Of a stretch of 57,041 nt of DNA, positions 34,082-40,260 are shown in pieces. The translations under genes were made by a program, and so were the position numbers. Position 1 is the stretch's first letter; the number at the start of each line of letters is the position of its first letter. The notes beneath the pieces are model-generated. The model ran no database searches. It was given only the letters and a program-made list of their open reading frames with translations, and was not told the origin of the DNA. The stretch covers positions 1 to 57,041 of the forward strand of contig JADLHU010000165.1 in NCBI GenBank assembly GCA_020848655.1. Direction: 5' to 3'. The stretch comes from Novosphingobium sp. Lineage in GTDB: Bacteria > Pseudomonadota > Alphaproteobacteria > Sphingomonadales > Sphingomonadaceae.

Positions 34082-34888
34082 TCAGAACTTGTACCAGACC
34101 CCCGCCAGCACGCCGCGTTCGCGCAGCGCGTTGCGACCGCTTACCGTGGCCAGTGCGCCAAGCTGAAGCGACCAGTGCGGCGCCACGTCATAGACCGCGC
34201 TGGCATAGGCGTTGACATAGCGATACTTCGCGAAGATCCCGCGCCCGTTGCCATCGGACACCGTGGTGAAGGCTTGGGCGAGCAGGAGCAGCTTTTTCGC
34301 CGGGCGCACGCCCAGCGTGGCATCGAGCCGGAATTCGTTGGGCGGTTCGCCGTTGCGGATGCGGTAGCCGCCCTGCACATCGACGAAAGCTTCACTGGCG
34401 CCGATGTGGAACGACTTGCCGGCCAGCGCGCGCAGATCGATCTCGCTGTCGGTGGCACCGACCTGGGCCACGCTGTCGCGCCGCTTGCGCCCCGGAAGGC
34501 GCACCGATCCTTGCACGGCCAGCACCGTGCTGGCGCCTTGCGCCAGGCGAAAGCGCGCGCCCAGTTCGGTATAGCCGGGACCGTTGGTTTCGGCATTGGC
34601 GCCGTCCACCGCGACATGGCTGAAACTGGGCGCCACGATCACCGTCAGGTCATCGGTGACGCCGTATTCGGCCAGCACATAGGCTTCGGCCTTGGTGTAG
34701 TCGTCGATGTCCACCGTATCGCCCTTGGCGTCGAAGCCCCTGGCGCTGTGCGAATAGACGCCGGTGACGATGACCTGGCCAGCGCCTTGCGGCTGGGTCC
34801 AGGCGCTGGCGTGGGCGCAGCCGGGGACGGCGGCGGCGATCGTGATCGCGGCGATCAGTACGGCTGGCGATGTAGCGGGGCGGTTCAT
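34082..34888 (-). CDS. Predicted outer-membrane beta-barrel protein of the exopolysaccharide operon
   Basis: A 268-residue exported protein: a signal peptide (residues 1 to about 28, ending AHA-S), then alternating amphipathic strands through to a terminal Phe in [10 protein letters not shown], the pattern of a small outer-membrane barrel of about 12 strands. I do not recognise a named family. As the last gene of the five-gene operon, with its ATG overlapping the stop of the response-regulator gene (ATGA), it is a good candidate for the outer-membrane channel or anchor of the polysaccharide, analogous in place to NfrA or BcsC, though far smaller and without TPR repeats. Confidence 0.7.
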
Positions 34889-35841
34889 GCGGCTTTTCCC
34901 CTGAGATAGAATTCGGGTTCCGGTGTATCGAGCGAGCGGATCAGTTCGGCCGGCAGGGTCAGCAGATCGGACCCGCGCCCCATTGCAGAGGCGAATTCGA
35001 GCCGTGCACCGTCGCTTGTCTCGCCTTCGCGCTGGGGCACCGGCACAAGCGCAACCGCGGCCTGGATCTGGCGGCCCAGCAGGGCAACCTGTTGCGCCGT
35101 GGCGTTGCGGGCGGCAACCATGAACAGGCCCTCGCCGTGGCTGAACAGCAGCCAGCCCAGCGGCGCGGGTGTGGACATGATGACCACCGCGGCCTGGGCG
35201 ATCAGCGCGCGTGCGGCGTCGTCTCCCGCTTCCTGGTGCAGGCTGGGCACGTCCGTCAGGCGCAGTGCCAGCAGGCCATACGTGCGCTCGTTCTCCACCG
35301 CATGGCGCATCGCCACGGCGAAGCCCTCCTTGCCGGGAATGCCGGTATCGTCGTCGATCAGGTCGGTGATCGTCGGCGTGTCCTTGCGCGCGGCCCTGAG
35401 CAGTTCGGCCTCGCGGCTGCGACGGCGATCGAGTTCGCGCTTGAGCTGCATGGCGGACCGCACGCGGGCCAGAAGCTCGAAGTTTTTCACTGGCTTGCTG
35501 AGGAAGTCGTTGGCGCCGGCCAGGAAGGCCTGGTTCAGCGATTCGATCTCGTTCATGCCGCTGAACATCAGGATCGGCACATCGCGGTAGCAGCGCGTGG
35601 TGCGGATGCGGGCGCAGGCCTCGATGCCATCGATTTCGGGCATCATCAGGTCAAGCAGGATCACGTCGAAGCGCGGCTCGCAGCCGTCGCAGTCCTCGTC
35701 CAGCCCCAGCAGGGCATAGGCGTCCTCGGCATTGGTGGTGTGGACGACTTCGGCAAAGCGGCCGGCCTGGAACACCAGCGATATCGCCGCGCCAAGCGTT
35801 GCGTCGTCGTCGACGATCAGGATTCGGGCCATGCCGTTCAT
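34885..35841 (-). CDS. Response regulator with degenerate GGDEF-like output domain
   Basis: A 318-residue protein. The receiver domain (about 4-130) has the acidic pair DDD at 11-13, phospho-acceptor Asp64 in ILLDLMMP, Ser94 and Lys116 in SKPVKN, so it should be phosphorylatable. The C-terminal part (about 150-310) has the size and order of a GGDEF domain but reads HGEGLF (235-240) at the signature loop, so it cannot be an active cyclase; it may be an allosteric or binding module. It overlaps both neighbours (ATGA at each end). No cognate histidine kinase is in the window. Confidence 0.82.
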   Translation of the reverse strand: MNGMARILIVDDDATLGAAISLVFQAGRFAEVVHTTNAEDAYALLGLDEDCDGCEPRFDVILLDLMMPEIDGIEACARIRTTRCYRDVPILMFSGMNEIESLNQAFLAGANDFLSKPVKNFELLARVRSAMQLKRELDRRRSREAELLRAARKDTPTITDLIDDDTGIPGKEGFAVAMRHAVENERTYGLLALRLTDVPSLHQEAGDDAARALIAQAAVVIMSTPAPLGWLLFSHGEGLFMVAARNATAQQVALLGRQIQAAVALVPVPQREGETSDGARLEFASAMGRGSDLLTLPAELIRSLDTPEPEFYLRGKAA

Positions 35842-39223: not shown

Positions 39224-40260
39224 GCGGTGGCTCCAGCCGTCACGCCAGCGGCGCGCAGCGGCGGCATGCGGCGGATCAGCAGCGCGAAGCCGATGCTGGC
39301 CAGCAGCCAGAACGCGATCAGCGCCAGCCGCGTATAGAGCGCCAGCCGCTCGTCGCGCGCGGCCGAAACGGCATAGACGATCCGCACCGCGGCGTCCTTG
39401 CCGGGGGTCAGCGCGATGGTGCGCCCATGCGCATCGAACAGTGCCAGCGATCCGTAATCGAGGTCCATCGCCGGTGGCGCCACGGCATTGCGGCCGGGCC
39501 GGATCCACAGCACCGGCGTGCGGCCGGTTTCAATCAGTTGCACGGCGGTCAGCGCATCGAACTGGCGATGATCGTAGATCGGCTTGCCGTCCGCATCGTC
39601 CATCCGCACCGCGCCGGTATCGAAGCGCAGCGCCGGGCTGGTCCCGGCGGGCGTGTCGCGGCTGACCACGATCCGCGCCGGACCCGCGCCCTGCCGGGGG
39701 GCATGGGGGGCCAGCGCGGCGATGGCGCGATCCGCGAAAGCGGCGTCTTCGGGCCGCGGCGCCGTGATCGCCACCCCGGCGCGAAAGCGCGTGACGTGGG
39801 CGGAAAACCCCGACAGCCCCATGCCGGCATAGCCCAGCCGGGCCACCGGATTGGCGATCAGGCGCGCGCCCGACAGATCGCAGGCCTCCACCGCGCAACG
39901 CGGGGCGGTGGCGGTCAGCGCGATGTCCACGCGGTTGCGGGTGGACAGCAGGCGATCGGGCAAGGCCGTGTTCAGCCTGGTTGCGCCGCTGCGACTGGCG
40001 GCGGTCGCGGTGATGACGATGCCGTTGAGCGAGACGGTGATCCGGGGGGCATATCCGCGCAAGGCCGCGTCCGAAGCGTCCAGTGCAAAGCGGATCGCGG
40101 CGGGCCGCGTGTCGGCGGGCAGGGTGCGCAAGTCCAGCGTCGCGTGCCACAGCCGCTGCGCCGGGCGCCGGCCCGCGTCCGCTGCCTGCGGCGCGGCGTG
40201 CCCGGCAAGGGGCGCAAGCAGTCCCGTCACGGCCAGCATCAGTGCAGGCAGACGGGGCAT
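39220..40260 (-). CDS. BcsB-like periplasmic subunit with C-terminal anchor
   Basis: A 346-residue protein: signal peptide (residues 1-21, ending GHA-A), an all-beta periplasmic region (about 30-300) and one C-terminal transmembrane helix (about 318-337; LALIAFWLLASIGFALLI) followed by a basic R-R-M. The ITVSLNGIVITATAAS and NTALPDRLLSTRNRVDIALTA segments resemble the carbohydrate-binding jellyroll domains of BcsB, which partners the cellulose synthase BcsA. BcsB is normally 700 residues or more, so this is a half-size version. First gene of the operon; the ATG at 40260 gives a proper signal peptide. The similarity is structural in character and needs a profile search. Confidence 0.65.
   Translation of the reverse strand: MPRLPALMLAVTGLLAPLAGHAAPQAADAGRRPAQRLWHATLDLRTLPADTRPAAIRFALDASDAALRGYAPRITVSLNGIVITATAASRSGATRLNTALPDRLLSTRNRVDIALTATAPRCAVEACDLSGARLIANPVARLGYAGMGLSGFSAHVTRFRAGVAITAPRPEDAAFADRAIAALAPHAPRQGAGPARIVVSRDTPAGTSPALRFDTGAVRMDDADGKPIYDHRQFDALTAVQLIETGRTPVLWIRPGRNAVAPPAMDLDYGSLALFDAHGRTIALTPGKDAAVRIVYAVSAARDERLALYTRLALIAFWLLASIGFALLIRRMPPLRAAGVTAGATA

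Follow-up and report, generated by a model that had tools for sequence, protein, structure and literature searches.

A xag/sfz-type operon in Novosphingobium sp. with an eroded MshEN domain and a dead-GGDEF response regulator

What switches on a polysaccharide synthase whose receptor domain for cyclic di-GMP (c-di-GMP) has kept few of its ligand residues? The question is raised by a five-gene operon at 34082..40260 of a 57,041-nucleotide sequence from Novosphingobium sp. (assembly GCA_020848655.1, contig JADLHU010000165.1), the whole of which is called the window here. An earlier note, made from the sequence alone, had described five minus-strand genes joined by four ATGA overlaps. The coordinates and junctions were confirmed: four of the four gene junctions are 4-base ATGA overlaps, and the five genes are all open frames. 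Judged by its sequences, which include an MshEN-GT2 synthase and a BcsB-type partner, the operon appears to be of the exopolysaccharide (EPS) synthase type, as the note had proposed. The reading favoured here, to which I give about an even chance, is that this is a xag/sfz-type operon, likely for EPS synthesis and export, in which a co-encoded regulator with a dead GGDEF domain has replaced c-di-GMP as the switch of the synthase. The genes and the motif region are as follows.

39220-40260, minus strand: half-size BcsB-like protein, 346 amino acids (aa), with a predicted signal peptide, one CBD-FD-type repeat and a C-terminal membrane anchor
37331-39223, minus strand: XagB/Sfz2-type synthase, 630 aa, with MshEN at about residues 10-150, then a membrane-embedded GT2 domain
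39038..39196, minus strand: two 24-residue MshEN motifs with a 5-residue spacer, synthase residues 10-62
35838-37334, minus strand: XagC/Sfz3-type polytopic protein, 498 aa, with a predicted GT-C fold and a C-terminal periplasmic domain
34885-35841, minus strand: response regulator, 318 aa, with a receiver (D64, K116), then a GGDEF-fold domain
34082-34888, minus strand: XagA-type protein, 268 aa, with a predicted signal peptide, a predicted small outer-membrane barrel

Pfam finds MshEN and GT2 in the second gene and a receiver in the fourth, while genes 1, 3 and 5 have no match above cut-off. PilZ and tetratricopeptide repeat (TPR) domains were indeed absent, with no match at E<=1 in any of the five proteins. 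The GT2 catalytic motifs are complete, as claimed: D288, D337, D340, E431, D432, Q467, R470 and W471 are each identical in 114 of 114 aligned rows and T430 is kept in 111, the "DxD" motif reading D-A-E-D. The GT region has a mean identity of 0.83 to 22 relatives, and the synthase is 51% identical to the Mariprofundus ferrooxydans PV-1 protein in L068. Eight of the 120 best listed synthase relatives are named "glycosyltransferase XagB" by the Joint Genome Institute (JGI).

Does the synthase still read c-di-GMP? Its N-terminal MshEN (GspE_N) domain was confirmed by Pfam PF05157 (39.7 bits, cut-off 23.1), while the c-di-GMP motif model NF053729 gives 25.9 bits on residues 12-61, under its 38-bit cut-off. 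Papers are cited here by their PMC numbers, and statements about them refer to the available parts of their texts. The ligand residues of the two motifs were taken from PMC5013675, and the MshEN score counts 12 ligand-contacting residues (R; L/I/V/M; G; L/I/V/M; L/I/V/M; Q, twice). The window scores 4 of 12, with G3 and L17 in the first motif and L2 and L21 in the second. When its first 160 residues were shuffled 20,000 times, the mean score was 2.0 and P(>=4)=0.11. With 4 of the 12 ligand residues left, the earlier view of the synthase as c-di-GMP-responsive is not supported.

How common is such an operon? A protein search with the synthase at E<=1e-20 gave at least 7,998 candidates, of which the best 120 were listed, and a reference-genome scan gave at least 584 confirmed loci, of which the best 80 were kept. 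With 37 further genome stretches, four of which repeat named loci, 117 loci were studied. The synthase is patchily distributed: it was found at E<=1e-30 in 5 of 296 sampled genomes of the order, the window's own genome included, and at E<=1e-100 in 26 of 385 genomes of the class and 33 of 398 of the phylum, the own genome counted both times. The class and phylum matches at E<=1e-100 are mostly 35-54% identical. All five genes lie on one strand in 39 of the 117 loci, a lower bound because many contigs end early, and the order is that of the window in 39 of 39 (L138 repeats L021). The gene order is conserved in relatives, and more than chance is at work in it. ATGA overlaps among the 39 loci number 1 for bcsB-gt2, 30 for gt2-poly, 18 for poly-rec and 11 for rec-barrel, and complete overlap of the genes is not a conserved trait. 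In each of the 59 regulator-bearing loci the regulator gene comes after the polytopic gene, and in 43 of them it lies between the polytopic and barrel genes. In summary, the operon is real, conserved and probably working. A literature search by title and abstract, with most subscription journals outside it, found no description of the five-gene set in Alphaproteobacteria. A second cluster type (L078, L081, L084 and L085) has the barrel gene immediately before the synthase (xagA-xagB order), an MshEN domain that is eroded in three of four cases, and no regulator in the cluster.

The MshEN score was overlaid on a synthase tree of 91 rows, comprising the window and 90 loci; three repeated loci were dropped from it, as were partial and distant sequences. 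The 56 rows with a regulator score 2-8. No regulator was seen in 35 rows, of which 23 score 9-12 and 12 score 3-8, although L074, L079 and L162 among the 23 and L011 among the 12 end at most 0.8 kb from the synthase and cannot show its absence. The high-scoring rows belong to Zeta-, Gamma- and Betaproteobacteria, with one Desulfobulbaceae and one Acidobacteriota. In the sphingomonad clade of 24 rows, W stands at R1 in 23, T at L2 in 24 and R at the second Q24 in 24. The window and the other 22 rows compared share a mean identity of 0.55 in the motif region and 0.52 in the rest of the MshEN domain. Several lost positions thus carry a new fixed residue, and the motif region is conserved to about the same degree as the remainder of the domain, which looks like reuse rather than decay. 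The genome of the window, which is 88% complete, has 16 GGDEF and 9 EAL matches. Thus, the motif was not lost for want of c-di-GMP, and the loss is specific to the synthase.

The response regulator of the window was compared with those of 59 loci, two of which are repeats. The phospho-acceptor Asp is kept in 60 of these 60 sequences and the Lys in 59, while the cyclase site GG[DE]EF is found in none, the window reading GEGLF. The c-di-GMP-binding I-site, RxxD at the exact position, is present in 12 of 60, taking in 8 of 9 Azospirillaceae-type rows; the window reads PLGW, and in the sphingomonad clade of 24 rows, where 23 regulators were seen, none has an I-site. Phosphorylation is thus the only regulator input kept throughout, as judged from these residues. 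L033, L038, L042, L058, L142, L143 and others of the 12 combine an I-site with a dead cyclase site and are possible c-di-GMP receptors in their own right. The window regulator alone has no Pfam match to GGDEF, and 30 of 46 relatives do. A profile of the 46 relatives finds PleD, PA3702, WspR and DgcR, and a structure model (mean predicted local distance difference test score, pLDDT, 90.8; predicted template modelling score, pTM, 0.57) has a receiver-GGDEF build matching PA3702/WspR and PleD. The dead GGDEF domain of the earlier note was borne out in this way. VIA-align matches for the regulator are, beyond the first few, mostly receiver domains; the GGDEF assignment rests on the Pfam matches, the profile and the build of the model. 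Pfam finds no DNA-binding domain at E<=0.01 in the regulator.

Is the half-size BcsB-like protein a fragment? Alone, it gives 10.8 bits with Pfam BcsB, below the cut-off of 21, while 26 of 33 aligned family members match at E<=0.01. The family profile aligns with canonical BcsB of nine class genomes at an HHalign probability of 99.3 over 476 columns, so the family assignment stands; the half-size alignment alone reaches 4.0, and no solved structure matches the family profile at E<=0.01. The window protein falls on the second repeat of canonical BcsB and corresponds to the C-terminal half of longer relatives (open frames mostly 620-860 aa), in which the best-scoring stretch also sits in the C-terminal half. 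I found 18 other half-size relatives of 331-346 aa, besides loci L007, L008 and L017, in a search in which proteins over about 605 aa could not appear. Aligned with these three loci, the half-size relatives have 27 invariant columns. The half-size forms are real. The four half-size rows of the tree lie on one side of a branch with support 24, which fits one loss or several. A search of the window's genome, of the completeness given above, gave no further BcsB match at E<=0.01. L025 and L027 have BcsB-like frames of 430 and 391 aa versus 627-644 aa in congeners, by a split gene or a sequencing slip.

The polytopic protein joins those of Mariprofundus (L068) and Ferriphaselus R-1 (L064) in one family alignment (phmmer 52 and 51 bits). 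Its structure model best matches ArnT, Pmt4, ALG3 and oligosaccharyltransferase, which I take to be GT-C-fold proteins; Foldseek alone gives 1.2e-03 at best, and no solved structure matches the family profile at E<=1. By its model, the XagC/Sfz3-type protein is predicted to have a GT-C fold. GT-C glycosyltransferases have a catalytic acid in the first periplasmic loop. No acid was found in that loop among the columns conserved in at least 90% of 54 polytopic rows, the loop alignment being loose. The barrel gene has 265 relatives at E<=0.001; 120 of them were listed, and 7 of these carry the JGI name "protein XagA". Judged by these relatives and their names it is XagA-type, and its product is a predicted outer-membrane barrel. 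In Mariprofundus clusters, a weak barrel relative comes after the hydrolase gene, with 40 bits in L068. No barrel gene was found in Ferriphaselus L064, for which Kato et al. reported no xagA in the available part of their paper (PMC4643136).

Several observations weigh against a regulator that has taken over from c-di-GMP. The motif is eroded, with no regulator in the cluster, in eight Acetobacteraceae-type rows (score 3-4) and in L144 (5), L055 (6) and L050 (8). Of the 23 high-scoring rows, 20 already have H in place of the second Q24. The association of the regulator with motif loss is mostly one split of the tree; 3 independent pairs were found on starred branches, too few for an independent-pairs test, which was set aside. 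No barrel gene lies within 6.5 kb in 16 of the 59 regulator loci, L035 and L056 of which are on short contigs. At a pTM of 0.57 the domain arrangement of the regulator model is unsure, and the XagC-type protein is possibly no enzyme, as the loosely aligned first periplasmic loop showed no conserved acid. In NfrB, L490A and L490/537A had a moderate and G491L a strong effect on phage plating (PMC8669469), and in MshE changes of R9, D12 or Q32 cost at most fivefold (cited in PMC5013675). Since MshEN tolerates some residue changes, the window domain may still bind c-di-GMP. Could the synthase then respond to c-di-GMP as NfrB does, through an altered binding mode? In favour, the synthase has an MshEN domain that is conserved in the sphingomonad clade at the identity given above, the window's genome has 16 GGDEF matches, relatives in Zeta-, Gamma- and Betaproteobacteria have near-complete motifs, and MshE bears the change of R9 or Q32 alone to the extent just stated. 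On the other hand, 8 of the 12 ligand residues are gone, the change of any single conserved hydrophobic residue lowers affinity more than 10-fold, and a GspE with several key residues lost no longer binds (PMC5013675). I consider such a binding mode unlikely.

It is very unlikely that the regulator itself is the receptor, binding c-di-GMP at the I-site of its dead GGDEF domain and relaying the signal to the synthase: the I-site of 12 of the 60 regulators, including nearly all of the Azospirillaceae type, would suit this, but PLGW stands there in the window and none of the 23 sphingomonad-clade regulators has the site. The regulator may instead act elsewhere, on gene expression or another pathway, and leave the synthase constitutive once expressed. 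Contact between regulator and synthase is indeed a proposal, and the Acetobacteraceae-type clade does with an eroded MshEN domain and no regulator in the cluster; yet the fixed place of the regulator gene after the polytopic gene (59 of 59) and mostly before the barrel gene (43), together with the lack of a Pfam DNA-binding domain, makes this improbable. That the operon is decaying and its halved BcsB, eroded sensor and dead cyclase are leftovers is scarcely credible. The BcsB-like protein does lack one half, and the MshEN score is near the shuffled background, but the other half-size relatives with their invariant columns, the intact GT2 residues, the conserved GT region and the five open and overlapping frames all speak against decay. 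Replacement of c-di-GMP by the regulator is kept as the preferred reading.

How might the operon work? The GT2 domain would polymerise a nucleotide sugar and pass the chain across the membrane by way of its own helices. In the periplasm, the half-size BcsB-like protein, with the second repeat and the anchor kept, would take up the chain and hold the exit. The polytopic protein of predicted GT-C fold may modify or guide the chain, and the XagA-type barrel would let it out of the cell. The phosphorylated regulator would act on the MshEN domain and turn the synthase on. What the sequences and models show is the gene content and order, the residues kept and lost, and the predicted folds of the regulator and the polytopic protein; that a polymer is made, how it leaves the cell, that the regulator touches the MshEN domain and which way control runs are inferences. 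A more specific reading, possible rather than probable, is a rewiring to two-component control, in which the MshEN domain no longer reads c-di-GMP and docks a dead diguanylate cyclase with a phosphorylated receiver. Intermediate stages would be visible: a full MshEN motif without a regulator, half a motif with an I-site regulator, and, in sphingomonads, neither site. If this is true, a c-di-GMP receptor domain has kept its fold while responding to another input, its partner probably being a dead cyclase, and there is a testable route to new functions for pseudo-enzymes of the GGDEF family.

In 21 loci without a regulator, a hydrolase gene with the orientation of the polytopic gene comes after that gene, and the barrel gene, where found (20 of 21), lies beyond the hydrolase gene. 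This slot is occupied by the response regulator in the regulator-bearing loci. The XagD/Sfz4-type hydrolase matches Pfam glycoside hydrolase family 113 (GH113), at 158 bits for L068:13343-14344 and 116.8 bits for L008:7546-8565. Known GH113 enzymes are beta-mannanases. The GH113 type may give a hint at the nature of the polymer. Sfz4 was assigned to family 10 in PMC8250860, unlike the Pfam result here, and its re-filing as GH113 bears on the possible identity of the stalk polymer. The earlier note had found no hydrolase; this holds for the window operon but not for its relatives, since a GH113 gene lies beside the operon on the opposite strand in 27 of 59 regulator loci. No GH113 gene was found in the examined stretches of L007 and L017, and the window's genome has a single distant GH113-like domain, on another contig. 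A long protein in L190 (G000:C94) begins with a GH113-like domain (105.7 bits) and is encoded next to a gene resembling a sugar epimerase gene.

Around the operon, a tRNA-Met gene lies upstream at 40515-40591 on the opposite (plus) strand. mreB (32905-33948, minus strand; Pfam MreB_Mbl 448 bits) lies 133 bases past the barrel gene on the same strand, followed by a gene for an AMP-binding enzyme on the opposite strand. A GGDEF-EAL protein is encoded at 19316-20545 (minus strand), about 14 kb from the operon.

Is this a new kind of system? The earlier note knew of no described system with this set. A bcsB-xagB-xagC-xagD cluster is known from stalk-forming iron oxidisers (Kato et al. 2015, PMC4643136) and was named sfz1-6 by Koeksoy et al. 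2021 (PMC8250860); it shares the first three genes and their order with the window, so the claim is not supported. Mariprofundus ferrooxydans PV-1 and Ferriphaselus R-1 both have homologues of these three genes in the same order. Sfz2 has an EpsE-like domain at its N-terminus and GT2 at its C-terminus (PMC8250860), which is the domain order of the window synthase. The window thus has the MshEN-GT2 synthase, the adjoining XagC/Sfz3 protein and the XagA-type barrel, and its operon lacks the full-length, two-repeat Sfz1 and the XagD/Sfz4 glycoside hydrolase. The sfz/sfb cassette of Mariprofundus and Ferriphaselus has the GH113 hydrolase gene in the slot of the window's response regulator, in many cases a CotH-type gene, a two-repeat BcsB and an MshEN score of 9-11, in contrast to a half-size BcsB and a score of 4 in the window. 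In Xanthomonas xagABCD, xagA comes first in the gene order, no response regulator in the operon is mentioned in the available text, and loss of xagA or xagB lessened biofilm in an rpfG mutant, not in the wild type (PMC3609779, PMC3633832, PMC3826837). The Xag naming of the window genes rests on JGI annotation and these papers, not on Xanthomonas sequences. The comparison joins xag biofilm genes, iron-oxidiser stalk genes and NfrB, which are mostly separate in the papers cited, and gives the polytopic XagC/Sfz3 protein a model-based predicted fold.

Escherichia coli NfrBA likewise has GT2 and MshEN in one synthase and an outer-membrane partner (PMC8669469). However, the GT2 domain of NfrB is N-terminal and its MshEN domain, with a complete c-di-GMP motif, C-terminal, so the NfrB-like domain order claimed for the window does not hold; the NfrB model at positions 485-630 of 723 aligns to window synthase residues 12-158. 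NfrA contains TPR, and BcsB is not mentioned in the available part of that paper. The BcsAB cellulose synthase also pairs GT2 with a membrane-anchored periplasmic partner of the BcsB type, BcsB having two CBD-FD repeats and being required for BcsA activity (PMC11379886), while the window has one repeat and no PilZ or TPR match. For the regulator, a likeness is found in Myxococcus xanthus, in which EpsW, once phosphorylated, activates EpsZ, an enzyme of EPS synthesis, through a proposed contact (PMC12802240). This is a response regulator acting post-translationally on an EPS enzyme, as suggested here for the window, although EpsW consists of a receiver alone and EpsZ works in a Wzx/Wzy pathway as a phosphoglycosyl transferase. 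The diguanylate cyclases PleD and WspR have the receiver and GGDEF fold in common with the window protein, which is without their cyclase site and I-site. The operon is a variant of the xag/sfz kind, neither an unknown system nor NfrB-like in build.

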